A stretch of 42,478 bases of DNA from a virus, in IMG/VR virus record IMGVR_UViG_3300031918_000058, positions 1 through 42,478 of that record; one strand, written 5' to 3'. The notes beneath the pieces were generated by a model. The model worked only from the letters and a program-made list of their open reading frames with translations. It had not been told where the DNA came from and made no database searches. Shown one piece after another: positions 3,452 through 42,478 of the stretch; the first letter of the stretch is position 1; each line of letters begins with the position of its first letter. Made by a program: the position numbers and the translations under genes.

Positions 3452-3504
3452 ACAACACTTTATTGTAAAAAGCCCTTGACTTTTTGGCTCGAGTTTGATA
3501 TAAT
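3452..3504 (+). promoter_or_regulatory. Early-type promoter P1
   Basis: TTGACT (3476-3481), 17-bp spacer and TATAAT (3499-3504) within AGTTTGATATAAT. An ACAACA box begins 24 bases before the -35. The same composite element recurs at 38807 and 42122. It would drive the lysin, the RNA cluster and the RNA-repair genes. Confidence 0.88.
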
Positions 3505-4262: not shown

Positions 4263-4343
4263 ATGCCAAATATTTTACCACATCTGCCCAACCGAATGTT
4301 CGGAAACCAGGGTACAGACCAGTCAAGAATTATAAACTTGTAG
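4263..4343 (+). CDS. Very small ORF (26 aa) before the tRNA cluster
   Basis: ATG at 4263 with GAAGGAAG upstream gives 26 codons ending in TAG. The product has no recognisable feature (it contains PHLPNRMFGNQG). The good ribosome site argues for translation, but it could be a leader peptide or chance ORF. Confidence 0.35.
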   Translation: MPNILPHLPNRMFGNQGTDQSRIINL

Positions 4344-4419
4344 ATAGGAAGATGGGTTCGGCTACATGGAGTAGTTGACGCAAGTGAGGCACGCACTCCT
4401 CAGCCCTGTCCTCCTTTCT

Positions 4420-4501
4420 GGGGTATCAATGGTTAGACCAGGCGTAAATCCACGAGTTGGAAACCCTTGGGACGAGAGTTCGATTCTCTCATACTCCACC
4501 A
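4420..4501 (+). tRNA. tRNA-like element, degenerate (acceptor and T arm intact)
   Basis: GGGGTAT (4420-4426) pairs 7/7, with one wobble, to ATACTCC (4491-4497), followed by A and an encoded CCA. The T arm GAGAG-TTCGATT-CTCTC (4475-4491 region) is perfect. Between them is a D-like segment (TGG-TTAGA-CCA) and a small TCCA/TGGA hairpin, but no normal anticodon arm. An alternative 5' acceptor, GGAGTAG at 4368, pairs 6/7 with the same 3' strand, which would make the element about 130 nt. It may be a tRNA mimic, a tRNA with an insertion, or part of a larger RNA. Confidence 0.35.
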
Positions 4502-4508
4502 AATATAT

Positions 4509-4594
4509 GACGTAAAGGCGTGTGCAAGGTAACGCAGCTCCATGTATGAGCACAAATATAGGAGCATGTTTCAGGTTCAATCCCTGATTACGTT
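4509..4594 (+). tRNA. tRNA with expanded (19-nt) anticodon loop
   Basis: Acceptor GACGTAA (4509-4515) pairs with TTACGTT (4588-4594). The D arm is GCG/CGC with a loop containing AAGGTAA. The variable loop is 5 nt, and the T arm is TCAGG-TTCAATC-CCTGA. The anticodon stem GCTCC (4537-4541)/GGAGC (4561-4565) closes a 19-nt loop instead of 7. The loop begins A-T-G-T-A, so a U33 and GUA anticodon would appear if 12 nt were removed at the usual 37/38 junction. A competing 4-bp stem (GCTC/GAGC) gives a 7-nt loop without U33. No CCA is encoded. Identity is unresolved. Confidence 0.55.
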
Positions 4595-4638
4595 TTGGAT
4601 GAACTGGGGCGACACCGTAAAAGTCTCTCCACCAATAA

Positions 4639-4732
4639 TGCGATGTAGCTCAGCGGCAGAGCGGAGGTCTAATAAACCTTGACTATCAAAGTACACGATA
4701 ATGCCCAGGTTCGATACCTGGCATCGCAGCCA
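4639..4732 (+). tRNA. tRNA with long variable arm, anticodon loop CTAATAA
   Basis: All arms fold: acceptor TGCGATG/CATCGCA, D arm GCTC/GAGC with loop AGCGGCA, anticodon stem GAGGT/ACCTT, T arm CCAGG-TTCGATA-CCTGG, then G and an encoded CCA (4730-4732). The anticodon by position is AAU (Ile), unusual because A34 is rare in bacterial tRNA-Ile. The 24-nt variable region with a TATC/GATA stem is typical of Leu, Ser or Tyr tRNAs instead. The mismatch between anticodon and class makes the true identity uncertain. Confidence 0.75.
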
Positions 4733-4937
4733 TAAATACAATACACATGCTAATCAGGCGTAAGTCAGCCAAACGAGATTTCCGTAGAGCTGTTGATGAC
4801 AGTTCCGTAGTATATTATCCTTTAACCATACGAGTACTCTCGTGTCCTGTCTTAATGGTACTGGATTTAATCACCAGGTGTTTCGGTACGAACCGTACTG
4901 CATTCAGGCGAATTGGTTAGCAGTTGTATTGTATTTA
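4733..4937 (+). ncRNA. Candidate large structured RNA (multi-branch)
   Basis: A 12-bp perfect stem (4733-4744 with 4926-4937), then a small internal loop, then a 7-bp stem (GCTAATC 4749-4755 with GGTTAGC 4915-4921) encloses about 160 nt. Inside are GGC/GCC, CTGT/ACAG, ACCAT/ATGGT containing ACGAG-TACT-CTCGT, CTGG/CCAG, and CGGT-ACGA-ACCG. There is no plausible ORF. It lies directly after the tRNA with no gap and on the same strand. It resembles in style the large ornamental phage RNAs found beside tRNAs (GOLLD, ROOL), but I cannot show homology. Confidence 0.65.
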
Positions 4938-7056: not shown

Positions 7057-7359
7057 ATGGCAAAAATATACGGCAATAAAGTTCCTTCTGTTTCTGTTCG
7101 TTTTAGCGATGGGACGTACAAAGTATGGAAGAAGTGGACAGAACGCAAATTAATCAACGAACTTACTAAACTTTTGTCTCAAAAATCGACATTATTGGGT
7201 AGGGCTGATGGCACAATTACAGTTGTGTATCAGAAAGACCCAGACGGTGATTACAAAACGGTTTTTAGTTTCCAAAGTTTAGCTGATTGTTTGGTTAAGA
7301 TTCAACCTTCAATCGAACCTGCTATGCTAAGGTGGTTCTATGACAACACAAATAGCTAA
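7057..7359 (+). CDS. Hypothetical protein (100 aa)
   Basis: Preceded by a GGGG-type ribosome site. Beta-rich N-terminal half (VSVRFSDGTYKVWKKW) and helical end. Its 3' end overlaps the nucleotidyltransferase gene by 20 bases, tying it to the RNA-repair block. No recognised family. Confidence 0.7.
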   Translation: MAKIYGNKVPSVSVRFSDGTYKVWKKWTERKLINELTKLLSQKSTLLGRADGTITVVYQKDPDGDYKTVFSFQSLADCLVKIQPSIEPAMLRWFYDNTNS

Positions 7360-8074
7360 AGTACTAGTAGGGAGTAGATTACATGGGCTTAATACGGGCA
7401 CTAGTGATTACGATTTTCGTGGCATACATATACACAGCTTACAGGATAAACTTAGTCCTTTCAAAACTCTTAAGAACACTACGTGGATAGAGGGTGATGA
7501 AGACAATACGAGTTACGAACTCGCAGATTTCTGTAAGCAAGCGGTACATGGGAACGCAACAATCCTCGAAGTCTTCTTTTCAGACGAAATCATTGAAACG
7601 ACTCCGATACACGCTGAACTTAGAGCCAACTGGAAAAAGTTTATTGATACGAAACGATTCGTTGCAGCCAGTAGAGGTTATGCTCACAATCAATGGAACA
7701 AGTTCTACAACTTTGAAGACGTAGGAGTTCTTGGTCAACAACGCACAGCTAAGTTCGCAGTAGCATTCTTACGTGTCATGTGGCAATGTGAACAATTCTT
7801 ACTTACTGGTCAATTCAAATGCAACATTGCAGAAGCTGACATCTATCCTCTATTGAAGAAGATTAAGCCTATGACGCTTGAAGAGATTCGACCATTCACA
7901 CCAGAAATTGTAGCAGCTATGGATGAAATGTCCAGGCGTGTTGCAACCGCAGAGTCTATCAGCCCAGTTATGGACTGGAAACCAGACATTGAATGGATAG
8001 AAGATTTCATTTACAGAGCATACACTGAAGAGTTACAGGAATATAAATGGAAGTATGAGGATTTAAGTGAGTAA
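7340..8074 (+). CDS. Pol-beta-superfamily nucleotidyltransferase (COG3541/YcgL-like)
   Basis: A 244-residue protein whose N-terminus carries the nucleotidyltransferase signature VLVGSRLHGLNTGTSDYDFR: GS helix, then S-D-x-D metal ligands. The body matches the predicted nucleotidyltransferase family often found in phages beside RNA ligases. The stop overlaps the RNA ligase start by 8 bases, so the two are probably co-translated. Likely it adds nucleotides to an RNA or protein target; a role in tRNA 3' or anticodon-end repair is an inference from neighbours. Confidence 0.82.
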   Translation: MTTQIAKVLVGSRLHGLNTGTSDYDFRGIHIHSLQDKLSPFKTLKNTTWIEGDEDNTSYELADFCKQAVHGNATILEVFFSDEIIETTPIHAELRANWKKFIDTKRFVAASRGYAHNQWNKFYNFEDVGVLGQQRTAKFAVAFLRVMWQCEQFLLTGQFKCNIAEADIYPLLKKIKPMTLEEIRPFTPEIVAAMDEMSRRVATAESISPVMDWKPDIEWIEDFIYRAYTEELQEYKWKYEDLSE

Positions 8075-8990
8075 AACAGCAGCTTTCCCTAAGATTCTAC
8101 ATATCGGGGACAAACAAATCCTTGACCTTTTTGAAGGTGAGGTGGAGATTACTGAGAAACTTGACGGTTCACAGTTTTCATTTGGTAAAATAGATGGAGT
8201 AGTTGTTACTCGCTCAAAAGGACGTGAGTTTGAAGAGCCAGATAAACTATTCCGACCAGTATGGGAATATGTGCATTCGATAGAAGACAGGCTTCCAGAG
8301 GGTATTTGGTTCTACGGTGAAACACTGGGAACTCCACGCCACTCGACACTAGCATACGATAGAACGCCTAAAAACTTCTTCGCAATGTTTGGTGTATATG
8401 TTAGCGAGACACATGAGTATCTTAACTACGATTCAATCAAGGAATGGTCAGATAAACTAGATGTTGACCCAGTTCCGTTATTGTTCAGGGGTGAGATTAG
8501 CCAGAGTGCGATACTAGATATGGTAGAAGACACAGTTAGCTATCTCGGTGGACAAAAGATTGAAGGTGTTGTAGTAAAGGCATACAAGAATTGGTTATTC
8601 CTTGGACAGATTCCGTTATCGGTTATGTCTGGTAAATATGTCACAGAGGCATTTAAGGAAGTACACCAGAAAGATTGGTCTAAGCTAAACACTGGTAAGG
8701 GTAAGTTCGATGTCTTGAAAGAGAATTATCGTACAGAGGCTCGATGGAATAAGGCAGTACAGCACCTCCGAGACAATGGAGAGTTGACTGGTACACCTAA
8801 AGATATTGGTTTGTTACTTAAGGAGGTCTATGTTGACTTAGATACTGAAGAGCAAGAGAATATCAAAGAACAACTTTATAGTATCTATAAATCAGATATT
8901 ATGAAGTACGCCACATTTGGGTTAGCCCAGTGGTATAAAGAACAACTATTGGAAGGAAAAATCAATGGAATCAGTACAGAAAATCAGTAA
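8067..8990 (+). CDS. T4 Rnl2-like RNA ligase
   Basis: A 307-residue ATP-dependent RNA ligase of the RNA_ligase (PF09414-type) family. Motif I is TEKLDGS with the AMP-accepting Lys near residue 34, motif III is FFAMFGVYV, motif IV is EGVVVKAY, and motif V includes the Lys in SGKYVTEAF. A helical C-terminal domain of about 100 residues follows. It would seal 3'-OH/5'-phosphate RNA ends, the product of the phage kinase-phosphatase 1.2 kb downstream. In T4-like phages such enzymes repair tRNAs cut by host anticodon nucleases. Confidence 0.88.
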   Translation: MSKTAAFPKILHIGDKQILDLFEGEVEITEKLDGSQFSFGKIDGVVVTRSKGREFEEPDKLFRPVWEYVHSIEDRLPEGIWFYGETLGTPRHSTLAYDRTPKNFFAMFGVYVSETHEYLNYDSIKEWSDKLDVDPVPLLFRGEISQSAILDMVEDTVSYLGGQKIEGVVVKAYKNWLFLGQIPLSVMSGKYVTEAFKEVHQKDWSKLNTGKGKFDVLKENYRTEARWNKAVQHLRDNGELTGTPKDIGLLLKEVYVDLDTEEQENIKEQLYSIYKSDIMKYATFGLAQWYKEQLLEGKINGISTENQ

Positions 8991-10058: not shown

Positions 10059-10214
10059 ATGCAGGGGAAGAAGAAGTTTCCAATACCTAATGTTGTGTAC
10101 AGCATTGCGAGTAAAGGTGCAGCATGGTTTCACTATCCATTTAATAGTGGAGAGAATAAAAGAAAACTTGAAGAATTAAGAGGGAAATTAGATGGACACA
10201 GCGACCAAACCTGA
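10059..10214 (+). CDS. Hypothetical small basic protein (51 aa)
   Basis: ATG 10059 is chosen over an in-frame ATG at 10029 because AGGAG sits 5 bases before it. The product is basic (QGKKKFPIPNVVYS, then NKRKLEELRGKL) and overlaps the kinase-phosphatase start by 23 bases. Function unknown. Confidence 0.6.
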   Translation: MQGKKKFPIPNVVYSIASKGAAWFHYPFNSGENKRKLEELRGKLDGHSDQT

Positions 10215-11106
10215 AAAGGTTAAACGACAAGTCGCACAAATGCATCCTACACTACTAGTGTTAAAAGGTCTGCCAGGTTCTGGTAAGACCACATACGCTA
10301 GGGAGCTGGTGAATAAAGGGTGGGTTCGTGTGAACAAAGATGACTTACGTGCCATGTTACACAATAGTAAGTTTAGTAAGGATAACGAGAAGTTTGTCCT
10401 GAAGCTCCGTGATGATGTTATCGTCCGAGCATTGACTCAGGGTCAGAACGTGGTAGTAGATGATACTAACCTCGACCCTAAACACAGTGAGACATTCAAG
10501 AATCTAGCAATAGTTTTTGAAACGTTTTACGAAGAGAAGTTCTTTGATGTATCTGTTAAAGAATGCATTAGGCGTAACCAATTACGTGACAAGCCAGTAC
10601 CTGATAAGGTAATCTACGCTATGCACGATAGGTATTTAGTACCGCCGCCTGCAGTTATCGCATATGATGACAATAAAGAAGAAGCTATCATTGTTGATAT
10701 TGATGGCACACTAGCACACATCGCAGATGGTCGCAGTCCTTATGACGCAAGCCGAGCTATGAACGATTCACTAGATGATGCAGTATCAGTAGTCACCGCT
10801 ATGATGTATGACCACGGCTACAAAGTTATTATCCTTACTGGACGTAACGAAGACCACCGAGAAGTTACAGAAGAATGGTTGAAAGCAAACAACGTAGAAT
10901 ATGATGAGCTTTACACTCGACTCAACAGTGATGTTGATGACAAAGGTAAACAACTCGAAGATTCAATAGTTAAAGAACGACTATTCCGCACACATGTAGA
11001 ACCACGATTCAATGTTAAGTTTGTACTTGATGACCGAAACCGTGTAGTAGATATGTGGAGGAGAATTGGTCTCAAGTGTTTCCAAGTAGCTGAAGGAAAC
11101 TTCTAA
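10192..11106 (+). CDS. pseT: T4-like polynucleotide kinase-phosphatase
   Basis: A 304-residue bifunctional RNA end-healing enzyme. The N-terminal P-loop kinase has LKGLPGSGKTTYAREL (Walker A), KDDLRAML, and VVVDDTNLDP. The C-terminal HAD phosphatase has VDIDGTLAHI (nucleophile Asp and acid/base Asp), VIILTGRNE, and FVLDDRNRVV. The architecture and length match phage T4 Pnkp. It converts 5'-OH/2',3'-cyclic-phosphate ends into 5'-phosphate/3'-OH ends that the RNA ligase can join. Together with the ligase and nucleotidyltransferase it forms a complete break-repair set. The symbol pseT is by analogy with T4. Confidence 0.92.
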   Translation: MDTATKPEKVKRQVAQMHPTLLVLKGLPGSGKTTYARELVNKGWVRVNKDDLRAMLHNSKFSKDNEKFVLKLRDDVIVRALTQGQNVVVDDTNLDPKHSETFKNLAIVFETFYEEKFFDVSVKECIRRNQLRDKPVPDKVIYAMHDRYLVPPPAVIAYDDNKEEAIIVDIDGTLAHIADGRSPYDASRAMNDSLDDAVSVVTAMMYDHGYKVIILTGRNEDHREVTEEWLKANNVEYDELYTRLNSDVDDKGKQLEDSIVKERLFRTHVEPRFNVKFVLDDRNRVVDMWRRIGLKCFQVAEGNF

Positions 11107-18947: not shown

Positions 18948-19655
18948 CTAAAACAGACCGTAATCTGATGCGTAAGTTTTATATCCTGAGTTGACGTATC
19001 CAGAGAAGGTCGAGTTGAAAGTATCAACACTACCACCACTAGCAACCCATGCTTGTCGTGCTTTCTGCCATGTAGCAGGAGCAACGTGATTATCTGAACC
19101 CTTTTTACTCTCAAGGAATGTACCAGTATTATTAGTAAGACTCTTGAGTAGTTCTGCATTCTTTGCTTGTTCAGCAGCAGCAGAGCTAGTCGCAGCAGCT
19201 TGAGAGGCACGATTTGCAGCACCTTCACGAGCCTGAGCATCAATTTGTGCTTGGCTTAAGTTCCACTGATTAACAGCCTGTGTTTGGTTGTTCTGAGTAT
19301 CAAGGGCTTTGGTACGCATATCAGTATTAAGTGCAGCAGCCTGACCAGCTAGTGTTAGCTTATCAGAGTTTTGCTTTGCTTGAGCTTGTTGTACCCCAGG
19401 CAAGTAAGTAGTAGAAAGGTAATTAGCCTGTTCGTTAGTTGGTAGCCCAGAGAAAGTATTACCCTTACCTGTAGCTTGGTCGTTTATTTGATTAAAACCC
19501 TGGGTCTTAGCAGCGTCCAGTGCAAGGCTCTGGGCTTTGTATGTGGCATCAGTGTTAGCAGATTGCTGACCGATGATAGCCTGTTGTGCTTGATAACCAG
19601 GTTGCAGACTCGCCATAATCTGGTCGAGCGTTTGCACTGTTGGAGCATTAGCCAT
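18948..19655 (-). CDS. Gln/Ala-rich internal virion protein
   Basis: A 235-residue protein, rich in Gln, Ala and Asn with a long helical region (QAREGAANRASQAAATSSAA) and a compact C-terminus (WVASGGSVDTFNSTFSGYVN). Composition and place beside the 1494-residue protein suggest a second ejection protein. It has its own consensus late promoter immediately upstream (19685-19713), so the ejection and lysis genes can be transcribed independently of the long structural transcript. Confidence 0.65.
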   Translation of the reverse strand: MANAPTVQTLDQIMASLQPGYQAQQAIIGQQSANTDATYKAQSLALDAAKTQGFNQINDQATGKGNTFSGLPTNEQANYLSTTYLPGVQQAQAKQNSDKLTLAGQAAALNTDMRTKALDTQNNQTQAVNQWNLSQAQIDAQAREGAANRASQAAATSSAAAEQAKNAELLKSLTNNTGTFLESKKGSDNHVAPATWQKARQAWVASGGSVDTFNSTFSGYVNSGYKTYASDYGLF

Positions 19656-19684
19656 TAGGTTTCCTCTTTTGTTATTCTTTGTGT

Positions 19685-19713
19685 ATTATATCACACTTTG
19701 ATTATTTTGTCAA
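19685..19713 (-). promoter_or_regulatory. Late-type promoter upstream of ejection proteins
   Basis: On the minus strand: TTGACA (19713-19708), 17-bp spacer, TATAAT (19690-19685), inside the shared 13-bp core TGTGATATAATAC. A perfect sigma-70-type consensus, about 30 bases before the next start codon, with AGAGGAAA as ribosome site. Confidence 0.92.
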
Positions 19714-27546: not shown

Positions 27547-28455
27547 TTAGTTACCGCTTGGGCGTGTAATCTTAACAATGTGGTCAGCACGGACAACTTT
27601 AACTCCAAAGAGTTCAGCACCAGCGATGAAATCGACACCGTTAACTTTATCTCGGTCAGCCTCGAATGATGGAACGCTTTGCGTTGCACCGACAAGAGCA
27701 GACTTGTGGAACATAAGGAAGTTCCAGACCTTGCTACCAGCTGTACCAGATTCAGTAACAGCGTTAGAGATGTAAACAGGCATACCGTAGATTGAACCTA
27801 CGAGACCAGTCTTAGTCGAAACTAGACCAGCTTCACCGACAGAGTTGTAGAGTGTAAACTCAGCAACTTGGCGAAGGTCTCCCAAGCCAGCACCGTTAAT
27901 AACGATAAATCGTTGGTCAACAGGAACGTTAGCGAGGTCAAGAGCTGCAGCAGCTTTTACGACATCTTTAAAGGCAATAGTAGTGTTAGTATTACCAGTT
28001 GCAGTGACAGTTGAACCTGCACCAGCAATGGCTTTACGCATTACTTCCTCATCAAGAGCACGGTCAAGGTATCGACCAAGACGAGTCGTATGAGGTGAGC
28101 GGTAGTCGTATGTACTTTGTGCTTTAAGCACGTCCTGTACACCAAGGACTTTGCGAATGTATCGGTCAATCAGCAAGTCAACCTGAGTAGTCGTAAGACC
28201 ATCAACAGTTAGACCAGAGACAGCTGTGTTAGCTGCAGTTGAGTCGGTAATTTCAGCCATGAAGTTAAGGTGAAGAACATCACCCTTCTGAGAGATTTCA
28301 CTTGAGTAAGTGCTATCAATCAGTGCCCACATGACTAGGTTGTTAACACGGTTGTCCTGAAGTTCTTTAGCCCAGATTTTAGGGACGTTAAGAGATTCAG
28401 CACCAGCACCGCTCACACCACCAGTACCGATGGTAGGGGTTAGATAGTTAGGCAT
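27547..28455 (-). CDS. Major capsid (coat) protein
   Basis: A 302-residue protein between scaffold and fibre genes. It has the pattern of podovirus HK97-fold coats: N-terminal PKIWAKELQDNRVNNLVMWA, a spine segment with RYLDRALDEEVMRKAIAGAG, and PVDQRFIVINGAG followed by GSIYGMPVYISNAV. The C-terminal AELFGVKVVRADHIVKI is also family-like. There is no delta domain or protease, and a separate scaffold gene is present. Terminators and a late promoter flank the scaffold-coat pair, consistent with high expression. Confidence 0.88.
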   Translation of the reverse strand: MPNYLTPTIGTGGVSGAGAESLNVPKIWAKELQDNRVNNLVMWALIDSTYSSEISQKGDVLHLNFMAEITDSTAANTAVSGLTVDGLTTTQVDLLIDRYIRKVLGVQDVLKAQSTYDYRSPHTTRLGRYLDRALDEEVMRKAIAGAGSTVTATGNTNTTIAFKDVVKAAAALDLANVPVDQRFIVINGAGLGDLRQVAEFTLYNSVGEAGLVSTKTGLVGSIYGMPVYISNAVTESGTAGSKVWNFLMFHKSALVGATQSVPSFEADRDKVNGVDFIAGAELFGVKVVRADHIVKITRPSGN

Positions 28456-28475: not shown

Positions 28476-29246
28476 TTAGCGTTTGAGAGCAGCATCAAGT
28501 AACGCACGGTGTTCTGGGTTTGTTGAGTCATACTCATTTTCAATCCAGGCATTAGTGACTTTTACAGGAGTTGCAGGTCGAGAATTAGTTGCATGTGCGT
28601 CAGCACCTGAAGCAGCTAAACTCTGATTCATAGAATTACGCTCTTCTTCTCTAGCAGCTTGTGCAGCAGCACTGGTATCAGCAGGCTTTTGTAGTTGTGC
28701 TAGACCATATAATGTAGGCAAATCTTGCAATAAGGAACGAGCATAGTCGTCACCAAATTGAGAACGCTTATCAGCAACAATTTGAGCCATTACTGGTTCT
28801 AGTGCTGCATCTTTGCCAGTGAAGAAATTAGTCTTCGTGGTAGCGAACTCCATGTTTGCTACTTTAGCGGTGAGCTTTTGGACATCAGTTGCATCGTCAC
28901 CAAGGGTTGCCAAGTTTTTAGACGTTTCGTCAAGTTTTGGTTGGTTATTCCTTGTTTTATCAAATGCAGACTTATTGTCTCGAGCCATTTTAAGAAGGCT
29001 TATTTCACGAGCTGATAATTCAGCAAGGTCGGTGATACCCTGACCTTTTGCGAAACTTGCGAGAGCAGCATTGTCATCGGCTTCTGTTGATTGATTTTGT
29101 TCAGCAGATGCGGTAGACGTTGCCTGAGAACTTGCGTCCTCGTTTCCATTTACTTGCGAATCCGCTGGAAGATTTGTAGGGTTAGCTGTACTCGAGTTGT
29201 CGGCAGCTGACGTATCTACTACTTGACCAGTAGTGGTTTCATTCAT
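28476..29246 (-). CDS. Scaffolding protein
   Basis: A 256-residue, acidic, Gln/Ser/Asp-rich and helical protein just upstream of the coat gene. The N-terminus is disordered (NSSTANPTNLPADSQVNGNE) and the middle helical. The C-terminus (VTNAWIENEYDSTNPEHRAL) is a plausible coat-binding helix-turn-helix. AAAGGAG precedes the start. Typical scaffold composition and position. Confidence 0.82.
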   Translation of the reverse strand: MNETTTGQVVDTSAADNSSTANPTNLPADSQVNGNEDASSQATSTASAEQNQSTEADDNAALASFAKGQGITDLAELSAREISLLKMARDNKSAFDKTRNNQPKLDETSKNLATLGDDATDVQKLTAKVANMEFATTKTNFFTGKDAALEPVMAQIVADKRSQFGDDYARSLLQDLPTLYGLAQLQKPADTSAAAQAAREEERNSMNQSLAASGADAHATNSRPATPVKVTNAWIENEYDSTNPEHRALLDAALKR

Positions 29247-29266: not shown

Positions 29267-29587
29267 CTATTTATTTGTAGCTGAAGAAACATATTCCTCA
29301 ACGTACGATAGTATTATATCACATCCTCTAGCATTTTGCAAGAGAGAAAGCGACTTCTCACCATCAATTATTATTTGTTCACCGTCTCCTACTGGAGAAG
29401 GCATTACCATTTCCTTTGCGTAGGTACTGAGCATCTCGCTTGTAGAGTGCCCATATTGCATTAAATCTGCATACGCATCTGTTTTGGAGAAGGTAGCCCA
29501 TTGACGTGCAATGGACTTCTCCCTCTCCGCATTAGCTTTGGAGAGACCTTCTATTTTCGTTACATCTTTTGCTTCAACTTGTTTCAT
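29267..29587 (-). CDS. Hypothetical protein between portal and scaffold (106 aa)
   Basis: A helical, charged 106-residue protein (GLSKANAEREKSIARQWATF). It starts one base after the portal stop. A late-type promoter for scaffold and coat lies inside its 3' end. Possible head-assembly accessory; not recognised. Confidence 0.7.
   Translation of the reverse strand: MKQVEAKDVTKIEGLSKANAEREKSIARQWATFSKTDAYADLMQYGHSTSEMLSTYAKEMVMPSPVGDGEQIIIDGEKSLSLLQNARGCDIILSYVEEYVSSATNK
29313..29341 (-). promoter_or_regulatory. Late-type promoter for scaffold and coat
   Basis: On the minus strand: TTGCAA (29341-29336), 17-bp spacer, TATAAT (29318-29313), within TGTGATATAATAC, the same core as at 19685 and 34645. 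The expected start gives about 60 nt of leader before the scaffold ATG. Confidence 0.82.
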
Positions 29588-33796: not shown

Positions 33797-34285
33797 TTAT
33801 CTCAAATCGTTTAAGGCTTGTTCTATATTGACGTGTCCAACAAGCTGTTTCTGCACAAACATACCCTGGTCGATACCAAGTAGTTTGATTGCTTGTATTC
33901 TATCTGAGGCTTTCTCATACTTACTACTAGCTATATTCGCTAGGGCTTGTTTGAGATGCTCTGGTTGCAGCTTAACAATGTTCTGTGCTTGCTGTACCCA
34001 CATTGGTGCTACACTCATAATCTGAGATGCGTAGCTTTCTGAGTATCCAGCCTTTGTTGCTGCTAGATAAGCATTACCCCAGGTCTCAGGTTGCTCTGGG
34101 TCTAGGTAAAATCGTAAGAACTCATTCTGCTGAGGTGAGTTAGTCCACTGGTTAGCGGTTACTCCTCGTTCCCCTAGCTTCCTGACTCCGAACTTTTTAC
34201 CACGCTTAGTTAGCTTTGTTGTTTTAGTTACAACAGGCTCTTCAGCTGGTTCAATATTAAGTTCTATTTCATCCATTGTAGTCAT
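33797..34285 (-). CDS. terS: Terminase small subunit
   Basis: A 162-residue protein. A disordered basic N-terminus is followed by an HTH-type segment (FLRFYLDPEQPETWGNAYLA; ATKAGYSESYASQI), then a helical oligomerisation region. NAYLAATKAGYSESYA is typical of small terminases. It should recognise the packaging start site and dock the large terminase. Confidence 0.82.
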   Translation of the reverse strand: MTTMDEIELNIEPAEEPVVTKTTKLTKRGKKFGVRKLGERGVTANQWTNSPQQNEFLRFYLDPEQPETWGNAYLAATKAGYSESYASQIMSVAPMWVQQAQNIVKLQPEHLKQALANIASSKYEKASDRIQAIKLLGIDQGMFVQKQLVGHVNIEQALNDLR

Positions 34286-34637
34286 CGTATTTCTTTTTGA
34301 AGTCCTTCCAATTTGTATAGACTATAGCATCTATACCTTTTTGTTTTAATAGCTGGCATGTATCAGCTCGGTTATCAATCATAAGGTCGATACCCATCAC
34401 GCTACACGTCCTTAGTTTTGCCATTGGCTGTTCCGCATATGTATTAGTATATACTGGTACTAGCTTCGCAACTCCTAAGAACCTTCTGGCATCGCCTCTC
34501 AGCCTGTCAGTGTTATTATAACCTATGGCACTAATGATAGAGACAGTATCCCCATTATCATTAGCGTCCTGTATAAGACGTTTAAACTGGTTCTCCGCTG
34601 TATCTATAGTCCCATAGAAATCTATTCCTATGTTCAT
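34269..34637 (-). CDS. HAD-like protein, leaderless first gene of late transcript
   Basis: Start set at ATG 34637 (MNIGIDFYGTID), giving 122 residues. The longer reading from 34988 adds non-coding-like sequence and crosses the promoter. HAD motif I is GIDFYGT, with Tyr in place of the usual second Asp. Motif II-like VSIISAIG and motif IV MGIDLMIDNRADTC are present. It resembles small phage 5'-nucleotidase-like HAD proteins, but loss of the acid/base Asp could alter activity. The -10 lies 7 bases before the ATG, so the mRNA has almost no leader. Confidence 0.75.
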   Translation of the reverse strand: MNIGIDFYGTIDTAENQFKRLIQDANDNGDTVSIISAIGYNNTDRLRGDARRFLGVAKLVPVYTNTYAEQPMAKLRTCSVMGIDLMIDNRADTCQLLKQKGIDAIVYTNWKDFKKKYDDYNG

Positions 34638-34644
34638 GTAGAGT

Positions 34645-34685
34645 ATTATATCACAGTTGTGTGGATTTGTCAATAGTAATGTTGT
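34645..34685 (-). promoter_or_regulatory. Main late promoter (leftward)
   Basis: On the minus strand: TTGACA (34673-34668), 17-bp spacer and TATAAT (34650-34645) within TGTGATATAATAC. ACAACA sits at 34685-34680, 12 bases before the -35. It is the only promoter seen before the terminase-portal operon. Confidence 0.9.
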
Positions 34686-35272
34686 AATTAATACATACCT
34701 TTCATTGAGGGGGGACGTTTTGTATCTGTTACAGAAGTACATACCTTTTAAATAATCAGTGTTTGTGTATTTAGGCTGAACATATTCTCTGAGATTATGG
34801 GTAAAGCCCCACACCAAATTGTAGCCTCCCCCACCCCACCTATACCTCATCATACTAAAACATAAATAATAAATAAAACAATAAGCATTATAAACAGCAT
34901 AATAATACATGGTATTGACATAAGCACAATGGTGTGTTGTGATAAGCATTAGGGCAATAAGCCGTAGCATAAGGGGTTTGACAAACATAAGAAGTATGTT
35001 ATAACTAACTTATTGATATGGTCGCTTATTAAGTATAAACCCGTGAATATGACATCCATACCCGAACACATAACAGAGGTAAGTCAAGTAATGTAAATGA
35101 TACAACACATAATTGCGTCTAGCTATTGCATTAAATGATTGGGAGGTGTAATATAAAAGTATAACAGATGATAAATTAATCACTGTAACGGCTATCCGAT
35201 AATTAAATAGGGTAAAAGGTAATGATAATATAAACAAATGAATATAAAAATAGTAAGAGAAAAGATAATAAC
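34686..35272. other. AT-rich divergent regulatory region, candidate origin
   Basis: No convincing gene. It contains a G-run/C-run patch (around 34710 and 34830), and ATAAGC occurs four times (34881, 34920, 34942, 34957) with one inverted copy near 35025. A rightward promoter (34978-35005) lies within. Minus-strand ORFs here are Tyr/Leu-rich and look spurious. The place between the two transcription arms suits an origin or control region, but the repeats are irregular. Confidence 0.4.
34978..35005 (+). promoter_or_regulatory. Rightward promoter at start of early arm
   Basis: TTGACA (34978-34983), 16-bp spacer, TATAAC (35000-35005). It would transcribe toward the small membrane-protein gene at 35273. 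No ACAACA box at the usual distance. Confidence 0.6.
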
Positions 35273-35449
35273 ATGTACAATAAGAGAATGATACTAGACC
35301 ATATTATAGCAATGATATTAAGTGTTTACACACTTGTTAACATCTTTAGTGTTGAACAATTCAATATAATACAGAGTGCTATAATGCTATTAGCTATAGT
35401 TTACTGTGTATACGTCTATATGGTATATTGGGACATAACCAAAAACTAA
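35273..35449 (+). CDS. Small two-helix membrane protein (58 aa)
   Basis: ATG at 35273 gives 58 residues with two hydrophobic segments (IIAMILSVYTLVNIF; AIMLLAIVYCVYVYMVYW). No strong ribosome site is visible (AAAAGATAATAAC upstream). It is the first gene of the early arm. Small early membrane proteins in phages often act in superinfection exclusion; that role is speculative here. Confidence 0.5.
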   Translation: MYNKRMILDHIIAMILSVYTLVNIFSVEQFNIIQSAIMLLAIVYCVYVYMVYWDITKN

Positions 35450-38749: not shown

Positions 38750-38834
38750 AGACCCAAAGTTTGTAGTCATCTTACTAGTGTTGATAGTGTGGCTATTGTA
38801 TATTCTACAACACATTATTGCCAAAAGTGCTTGA
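38721..38834 (+). CDS. Single-span membrane peptide (37 aa)
   Basis: ATG 38721 with GGAGAAGG upstream. A polar N-terminus (EPNNPFKDPK) is followed by one membrane helix (FVVILLVLIVWLLYILQ). It ends inside promoter P2. Confidence 0.55.
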   Translation: MVLEPNNPFKDPKFVVILLVLIVWLLYILQHIIAKSA

Positions 38835-38859
38835 CTTTTAGACAAAAGTTTGATATAAT
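38807..38859 (+). promoter_or_regulatory. Early-type promoter P2
   Basis: ACAACA at 38807, 24 bases before TTGACT (38831-38836); 17-bp spacer; TATAAT (38854-38859) in AGTTTGATATAAT. Same composite as P1 and P3. It drives the structured leader and the helicase block. Confidence 0.88.
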
Positions 38860-38865
38860 CCCTAC

Positions 38866-38889
38866 ATGACTCAAGACAAAACGTTTTGA
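38866..38889 (+). promoter_or_regulatory. Leaderless 7-codon ORF over a 12-bp palindrome at the P2 start site
   Basis: The first transcribed bases of P2 are expected to be ATG (38866), starting MTQDKTF then TGA. CAAAACGTTTTG (38877-38888) is a perfect 12-bp palindrome overlapping this ORF and could be a repressor operator just downstream of the start site. Either role is inference. Confidence 0.4.
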
Positions 38890-39151
38890 TAATGGAGCAT
38901 ATATCACAGGAAACTAGAGAGGGTGCAATCCCCTCAATGACCGTTAAGCAGTTAGCTAACTTATTACAGGCAAGCACGAAAGTGTTCAAGCAGTAGGGTA
39001 TAGGTCGGGATACATGTTTAGAGGACTCAAGGGGAACTCTAGGTGTTGATGATACGAAGTCGTAACGATGGGAAATACATTAACTCTCTCCTACTTCTCT
39101 CAGAAGTACATAATCGTAACTCGATTGTGCTGGGGGATAGTAGGGGGGAGT
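38890..39151 (+). ncRNA. Structured leader RNA before helicase block
   Basis: About 260 nt without a gene. Hairpins include GAGGG/CCCTC-type pairing near 38918-38935 and CAC-GAAA-GTG (GNRA loop) near 38977. The clearest domain is 39083-39151: a 12-bp stem (ACTCTCTCCTAC with GTAGGGGGGAGT, two G-U pairs). It encloses hairpins CTTCT-CTC-AGAAG (39094-39106) and AATCG-TAACT-CGATT (39112-39126). TACTTCT/AGAAGTA can extend by breaking the outer stem, so two exclusive folds exist, as in riboswitches. Confidence 0.55.
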
Positions 39152-41770: not shown

Positions 41771-41988
41771 TGCAGGATATAATGTTTGGTGGTGATAGGG
41801 ACGAGCAAGCAAAATATGATTTTGTAAACTACCTACTGGAACACCCACATGAACGATTCTGGCAGGCAGTACGTAATTTCCAGCATTTTAACTTCATCTA
41901 TGCAAGCAATAAGCTGATTGATGACCCAGAAGTGAAAGATACTTTCTATTGGGAAGATTTAAAGACAAAAAAAGAACCCAAGGCATAG
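41770..41988 (+). CDS. Hypothetical protein (72 aa)
   Basis: Coupled to the basic protein by TAATG. Acidic/aromatic (YDFVNYLLEHPHERFWQAVR). Last gene of the helicase operon. Unknown. Confidence 0.65.
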   Translation: MQDIMFGGDRDEQAKYDFVNYLLEHPHERFWQAVRNFQHFNFIYASNKLIDDPEVKDTFYWEDLKTKKEPKA

Positions 41989-42009
41989 GGGAATACCAAG
42001 GGTTCAAGA

Positions 42010-42073
42010 AAGGAGTTAAGCGTAGAGTAACGACAAAGAAATCTCTACATGTGGTATTATACCATAACTCCTT
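42010..42073 (+). ncRNA. Three-way-junction RNA element
   Basis: AAGGAGTTA (42010-42018) pairs 9/9 with TAACTCCTT (42065-42073). Inside are GTAGAG/CTCTAC (42022-42027 with 42043-42048) and TGGTA-TTA-TACCA (42052-42064). No U-tract follows, so it is not an ordinary terminator. It lies between the helicase operon and promoter P3, and the AGGAG in its outer stem would be hidden when folded. Confidence 0.5.
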
Positions 42074-42121
42074 AGTAAAGTCAATAGATAACAGGTTAGG
42101 AAACATAAGAATGTTAATTCT

Positions 42122-42174
42122 ACAACACATTTCCTGGAAAAACTATTGACTTTTAGCCTCCAGTTTGATATAAT
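42122..42174 (+). promoter_or_regulatory. Early-type promoter P3
   Basis: ACAACA at 42122, 24 bases before TTGACT (42146-42151); 17-bp spacer; TATAAT (42169-42174) in AGTTTGATATAAT. It drives the recombination genes across the join. An ATG (42182) falls 7 bases after the -10. Confidence 0.9.
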
Positions 42175-42197
42175 ACCTAGTATGATGAAAGGTAAAG

Positions 42198-42272
42198 ATG
42201 ATACTAATAATAGTATGTATAGCGTTTCCGATAATCTGCGGTATGGTAGGCTATGACAACGACCCAAGATAA
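42198..42272 (+). CDS. Small hydrophobic peptide (24 aa)
   Basis: ATG 42198, five bases after AAAGG. Hydrophobic core ILIIVCIAFPIICGMVG with a charged end. It is the first translated unit after P3 if the overlapping leaderless ATG at 42182 is not used. Possible membrane or leader peptide. Confidence 0.4.
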   Translation: MILIIVCIAFPIICGMVGYDNDPR

Positions 42273-42288: not shown

Positions 42289-42478
42289 ATGAGTAAAGTA
42301 TTCAAATACAACAGTAAGTTGGTTGGAGTCACTTTCGAGGGTAGGCAAGCAGTTATTTCTACTCTTAAAGGCAAAGAACCACTACGAGTAAGGCGTGAAG
42401 CTGAGAACGAGTATGATAAGAATGCAGTAGCGGTTGATGTACAGGTTGGCGAAGAGTGGCTACCTATTGGCTACATTG
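42289..42478 (+). CDS. HIRAN-PD-(D/E)XK nuclease, 5' part (continues at base 132 via repeat)
   Basis: ATG 42289 after AAGGAG begins SKVFKYNSKLVGVTFEGRQ and runs in frame into the terminal repeat. The phase is identical to the frame entered at base 2, so the two pieces are one gene. The N-terminal residues complete the HIRAN fold. Confidence 0.85.
   Translation, partial: MSKVFKYNSKLVGVTFEGRQAVISTLKGKEPLRVRREAENEYDKNAVAVDVQVGEEWLPIGYI
42348..42478. repeat. Right copy of terminal direct repeat (genome join)
   Basis: Copy of bases 1-131, differing only at 42352. Removing one copy gives a circular unit of about 42,347 bp. Confidence 0.93.

Follow-up and report, generated by a model that had tools for sequence, protein, structure and literature searches.

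Gene layout and promoters of the leftward block

The window analysed here, the whole stretch of 42,478 bases, is a single virus record (G000) in which rightward genes occupy the right end (from 35.3 kb on) and the left end (up to ~12.5 kb), and leftward genes lie between 34,637 and 12.6 kb. The leftward genes include those for the small and large terminase subunits (TerS and TerL), the portal, the major head protein and an endolysin, and the block is presumably late because structural genes sit there. Its first gene, encoding 122 aa, occupies 34269–34637 on the minus strand and is followed by terS (33797–34285, minus strand), which is second in the window and itself the predicted leaderless gene in 12 relatives. 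The major head protein gene (27547–28455) is almost devoid of a Shine-Dalgarno (SD) site (−0.9 kcal/mol). A nucleotide search of phage records returned no match to the window, and the best TerL match among such records was 44.7%, to an uncultured phage. Searching genome contigs with TerL yielded no convincing host; the contig carrying a 61% match (L150), 39.8 kb long, belongs to a Cardiobacteriaceae MAG and may be misbinned. Close relatives were reached through TerL.

Upstream of the leftward block lies late promoter 1 (34645–34673, minus strand), in which TTGACA (34673–34668), 17 bp, TATAAT (34650–34645), ACTCTAC and the ATG (34637–34635) follow one another in minus-strand order. Written as TTGACA-17-(TGTGA)TATAAT, it is a perfect consensus with an extended −10 (TTGACA, a spacer within 16–18 bp and TGN-TATAAT, as for the primary sigma factor), has counterparts in the relatives and would serve the host’s primary (sigma-70/sigma-A type) RNA polymerase. 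The first-pass annotation had proposed that three leftward sites share a 13-bp core with TTGNCA/TTGCAA at 17 bp. Indeed, the 13-mer TGTGATATAATAC occurs exactly at 34643–34655, 29311–29323 and 19683–19695 and nowhere else in the whole window, always on the minus strand, with −35 elements of TTGACA, TTGCAA and TTGACA, respectively, each at 17 bp. In 200 first-order Markov simulations of the window, the 13-mer occurred 0 times (3 observed) and TTGACA-17-TATAAT had a mean count of 0.005 (2 observed), while allowing up to 2 mismatches in the 13-mer gave 8 matches against 2.0 expected. The core is real, and we redefine it as an extended −10, TRTGN, plus TATAAT. Across the phage family, the promoters of the structural-gene strand would form the class TTGAC(A/T)-17-TRTGN-TATA(A/G)T, with the extension bases counted within the 17.

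The two further copies differ in their placement. Late promoter 2 (29313–29341, minus strand; TTGCAA-17-TGTGATATAAT) lies inside a coding gene (29587–29267), 66 nt before the next start codon, that of the gene at 29246, which precedes the major head protein gene; late promoter 3 (19685–19713, minus strand; TTGACA-17-TGTGATATAAT) is separated from the gene at 19655 by 29 nt bearing an SD. Owing to these intervening stretches, only one of the three copies is a candidate for leaderless expression. We propose that one of the other two, from within the preceding gene, adds transcription of the genes leading up to and including the capsid, and that the other does so for a later gene pair. The earlier list omits a further leftward promoter of this class, the fourth, which sits within the rightward gene block (42056–42084, minus strand; TTGACT-17-TATGGTATAAT, with TATGG TATAAT at 42061–42056) and would drive a small RNA.

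The first late gene begins at the expected RNA start

Primary-sigma polymerase usually initiates 7–8 nt after the −10, preferably at a purine, and the expected +1 is therefore the A of the ATGs found at this distance. At late promoter 1, the most likely first base of the RNA is the A of the 34637 ATG, which lies 7 or 8 nt beyond the −10; the RNA would then have AUG at its 5′ end, and the first gene would be translated from a leaderless message. Such a nearly leaderless gene, with the −10 placed 7 bases from the ATG, had been suggested earlier, and the spacing, the relatives (below) and the weakness of the ribosome-binding site all support this prediction: there is no SD before the start, and the SD energy at 34637 (+0.6 kcal/mol) is the weakest of 52 scored window genes (median −5.95). 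Most downstream genes of the operon appear to use SD sites; terS, displaced to second place, has a weak one (−3.0 kcal/mol).

The reading frame of the first gene is open for 124 codons upstream of its ATG, which raised the prospect that translation starts farther upstream (ATG 34988, 239 aa) or that the gene is read from a farther promoter, such as a weaker promoter-like site at 35308 on the minus strand, giving it a long leader. We regard this as very unlikely, as the corresponding upstream frame stays open for no more than 37 codons in 11 of 12 relatives, the extended protein would have to be read through late promoter 1, and the absence of an SD at 34637 speaks against a long leader there.

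The protein itself had been called HAD-like. A DFYGT motif near its N-terminus can be seen by eye, but the superfamily assignment is not borne out by profiles, the protein having no PHROG or Pfam match. It likewise has no match among phage records, and its fold model from the single sequence has a pLDDT of 43. The sole contig returned as a relative of this protein matched over 15 residues, and we rejected it as an unconvincing homologue.

The spacing is kept when the first gene changes

We compared 24 sources, 18 of which hold a recognisable TerS start and the DNA before it and four of which do not cover that start; L151 and MW202692 entered the strict promoter scan only and stand outside the 18-contig count. 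Among the 18 contigs with the start of the TerS operon, 15 place an ATG 6–7 nt downstream of the −10: at 6 nt in eight (IMG25896a, G002, G004, G005, IMG01097, G006, IMG31722 and IMG22750) and at 7 nt in seven (the window, IMG25536, IMG03313, G003, G007, G008 and IMG33552). Two of these, G007 and G005, are absent from the strict promoter set because their −10 elements read GATAAT and TACTAT, respectively. In 12 of the 15 this ATG opens terS; in the window it opens the 122-aa gene, and in G004 and G005 short genes that form a related pair. The displaced terS of G004 has a clear SD (−10.8 kcal/mol). In 9 of 12 relatives whose TerS start is listed at 6–9 nt, no other in-frame start precedes the conserved NQW core. 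These observations suggest that selection holds an AUG at +1 whichever gene comes first.

The three exceptions are of different kinds. IMG48672 has an ATG at 8 nt that opens a 16-codon ORF, with terS at 51 nt behind an SD of −5.6 kcal/mol; in IMG09979 the ATG lies at 9 nt; and L150 (TerL identity 61%) lacks a promoter of this kind and carries a strong SD (−11.6).

The same preference is seen when promoters are taken irrespective of the gene behind them. Of 70 strict promoters from the 24 sources, 11 have an ATG at offset 6 and 10 have one at offset 7; the remaining 58 offsets together hold 72 ATG starts, about 1.2 each. The arrangement is not confined to this family, however: a scan of viral contigs at large gave 118 stretches with the exact late pattern, and at 20 of 117 such places in other viral contigs (several being near copies of each other) an ATG-started ORF of at least 40 codons begins 5–8 nt downstream, so that AUG-first promoters are not rare among viruses and the spacing is not unique to the window’s phages.

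In G004 and G005 we also noticed an extra late-type promoter (L260:3194 and L262:7232, minus strand). It shares the strand of TerL and precedes an ORF of 44–49 aa with a ribbon-helix-helix look, as judged by eye.

A promoter copy inside a gene constrains its codons

Since late promoter 2 is embedded in coding sequence and has TTGCAA as its −35, it could be a chance occurrence or a by-product of protein conservation. In 14 relatives, 33–83% identical in protein, the promoter’s codons are largely kept (TTG in 13, CAA in 14, GAT in 13 and ATA in 13). When comparisons were limited to positions encoding the same residue, the promoter codons were identical in 53 of 54 cases as against 305 of 549 elsewhere (p 7e-12), and the promoter mask scored best at its true place out of 97 shifts. 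L150 also lacks this promoter copy. Retention at synonymous sites across proteins so divergent makes a coincidental origin highly improbable, and the comparison indicates that late promoter 2 constrains the codons of the gene in which it lies.

Two promoter classes divide by strand

A second class, with TTTGATATAAT and TTGACT at 17, is found at 3499, 38854 and 42169 on the plus strand. It differs from the late class mainly in having a pyrimidine in place of the R (TTTG), in its TTGACT, and in the position of an upstream TACAACA box. The classes were counted in 21 sources among promoters with a TTG −35 at 17 bp and a −10 that has TG ahead of it. Of the 33 such promoters on the late (TerL) strand, 29 carry TRTG, compared with 4 of 24 on the early strand, where TTTG predominates (15/24); the Fisher value for this split (6e-8) overstates its significance because the relatives are not independent. 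The earlier proposal of a late class distinct from the early one thus holds, and the split follows strand.

Of 70 family promoters, 20 have the TACAACA box in the 50 bp ahead of the −35, where 0.78 would be expected. In late promoters it is found at offsets of −13 or −23 (5/33), and in early promoters mostly at −25 or −16 (12/24). At late promoter 1 the box (34680–34686, minus strand) lies 13 bp upstream of the −35, an offset shared by three relatives. The box may bind a regulator of both classes. The offsets within each class (13/23 and 15–16/25) differ by about a helical turn.

The late promoters of one contig also tend to change together. At the penultimate position of the −10, which is A or G (TATAAT or TATAGT), promoters of one contig agree in 32 of 34 pairs in a hand-corrected table, both exceptions being in G008; this figure derives from 33 of 35 hand-corrected pairs after removal of the G005 pair, which used the promoter before TerL rather than that before TerS. 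An automated comparison, in which the window’s TerS promoter was taken inside the 34637 gene, gave agreement in 29 of 34 pairs, a level reached by 2 of 5000 shuffles. In the TerL phylogeny, A at this position characterises the window’s clade (100/100 support) and, separately, IMG09979. The change involves up to four late promoters at a time (late promoters 1, 2 and 3 and the small-RNA promoter), which fits a shared reader of the late class.

What sets the timing of the late class

Structural genes lie downstream of the leftward promoters, and on that ground their class is presumed to be late. The first-pass annotation had argued that, with promoters this good, late timing must come from repression. 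The analysis does not support this in that form: no repressor, sigma factor, polymerase or late activator of a known kind was identified in a scan of ~50 proteins, and the timing could as well be set by promoter strength, by an activator or by expression coupled to replication.

One alternative is that the two classes are simply strength variants of ordinary host promoters, with timing set by gene dosage after replication or by the order of transcription and no class-specific control. Both classes do match the host-type consensus with a TG-extended −10, TRTG is not exclusive to the late strand, and the exact late pattern recurs among viral contigs at large, all of which make this a serious possibility, albeit one we do not favour, given that the class difference tracks strand across 21 sources, that the TACAACA box sits at different offsets in each class, and that the −10 has changed in step at several late promoters.

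The expectation that strong promoters should fire at once is what recommends a repressor that keeps the late class shut early in infection, and a CACA..TGTG inverted repeat in the spacer of late promoter 1 could be read as its site. That repeat is present in the window, G003 and G005 only and does not recur in the window’s other late promoters, which, together with the outcome of the protein scan, leaves repression a somewhat unlikely account. The concerted −10 change and the TRTG versus TYTG split could point to a phage-coded co-activator or sigma-like protein that reads the late class. We find this yet harder to credit, since the scan identified no such protein and promoters so near the perfect host consensus should need no help. 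For the timing of the class, one reader or regulator common to its promoters is a likelier source than unrelated controls at each.

Altogether, we consider it probable that the family possesses a host-type late promoter class, an AUG at +1 of late promoter 1, a leaderless first gene, further promoters of the class and a small RNA driven by one of them. The predicted promoters, the difference between their classes, the 6–7-nt spacing, the absence of an SD and the synonymous constraint are all evident from sequence comparison, while use by the host polymerase, the exact RNA start, leaderless translation and late timing are what we infer from them.

Early promoters also place an AUG at the expected start

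The early-class promoter at 38831–38859 (plus strand; TTGACT-17-TTTGATATAAT) is followed after 6 nt by an ATG that opens a 7-codon mini-ORF (38866–38889), immediately before the ATG at 38892. At the one spanning 42146–42174 (plus strand), an ATG 7 nt downstream opens a 24-codon mini-ORF (42182–42256) that precedes a HIRAN-like gene at 42290, and the third (3476–3504, plus strand) has no ATG at +1. Two early promoters with an ATG at 6–7 nt are present in each of the window, IMG25536, IMG25896a and G002; the mini-ORFs they open span 5 to 32 codons, and some adjoin the start of an ordinary gene. In the window, both mini-ORFs end at or beside the following start codon, with the AUG at the expected start of the early transcript.

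Relation to known systems

Phages of the T4 and T7 type have late promoters read by phage factors, a distinct class for structural genes. The window, too, has a distinct structural class, but of host-consensus sequence and with no phage polymerase or sigma factor found among the scanned proteins. Extended −10 promoters of the primary sigma factor are built of TTGACA, 17 bp, TRTGN and TATAAT, the same elements as in the window, yet in many relatives the late class reads TATAGT throughout.

A search of the open-licence literature on leaderless late operons and anti-SD RNAs of phages returned precedents only, and nothing for the window’s family. Leaderless mRNAs transcribed from SigA-like promoters have been predicted in Cluster O mycobacteriophages (Corndog and its kin; PMC4351075), and leaderless phage mRNA is thus of an already known kind. 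These phages have mycobacterial hosts, and the portion of that paper covered here describes neither a strand-linked TRTG/TYTG split nor replacement of the first gene (PMC4351075). The leaderless cI mRNA of lambda and the E. coli mRNAs with a 5′-terminal uAUG, in which AUGs lie ahead of SD-led genes, offer a second likeness: AUG-first messages and, at the early promoters, mini-ORFs before an SD-led gene (PMC4965119). Those were shown experimentally in E. coli (PMC4965119), whereas the window’s are predicted, on both strands.

Our case is therefore a neat new example of AUG-first messages and not a new mechanism; what it adds is the conservation of the AUG through changes of first gene, a codon-constraining promoter and a concerted −10 change. 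That a phage family keeps a start codon at the expected transcription start although the gene behind it changes emerges from sequence comparison alone, and it means that leaderless translation of a virion-assembly operon can be tested directly. Likewise, a class whose −10 has changed in step at several sites is a natural test of what reads it.

A conserved small RNA and other features

The putative RNA behind the fourth late-class promoter (41967–42050, minus strand) comprises a hairpin, an unpaired linker (CUUAACUCCUUUCUU) and a terminator-like hairpin with a U run; its fold in the window has an energy of −22.9 kcal/mol (z −5.6). The pattern of the first hairpin matched nine viral contigs, each of which has a promoter correctly positioned for the RNA; apart from G006, they share the linker CUUAACUCCUUUCU without change. 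No base pair of the first hairpin covaries, because the stem hardly varies, and Rfam holds no member for this RNA. The linker resembles the 16S rRNA tail (anti-SD), and in the window the divergent HIRAN-like gene has an SD with which it pairs. In a first ranking within the window, before gene calls were made uniform, it paired best with rightward genes. We considered and rejected a role as a silencer of early genes, as, with uniform gene calls, three of four genomes showed no significant difference in pairing between early and late genes (p 0.12, 0.23 and 0.20); the fourth, G004, did (p 0.011), and the 16S tail gave the same difference there. A broader scheme, in which this late-class RNA, its exposed linker mimicking the 16S anti-SD, masks the SD sites of host or early mRNAs while AUG-first early and late mRNAs escape, as a switch in translation initiation, is one to which we give very little credence.

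Several other features of the window are worth recording. A G-rich element, TAGGTGGGGTGGGGGAGG, lies at ~34822–34840 on the minus strand, ~190 nt upstream of late promoter 1; its pattern was matched in 6 of 11 contigs tested, and it is quadruplex-like, perhaps a packaging or origin site. A set of RNA repair genes at 7340–8990 and 10192–11106 encodes an RlaP-like nucleotidyltransferase, an RNA ligase and a PNKP-like kinase-phosphatase. Finally, one tRNA was called within 4320–4930 (4639–4732, 94 nt, anticodon AAT), and several further tRNA-like 3′ halves can be seen near it by eye, possibly odd tRNAs missed by the caller.
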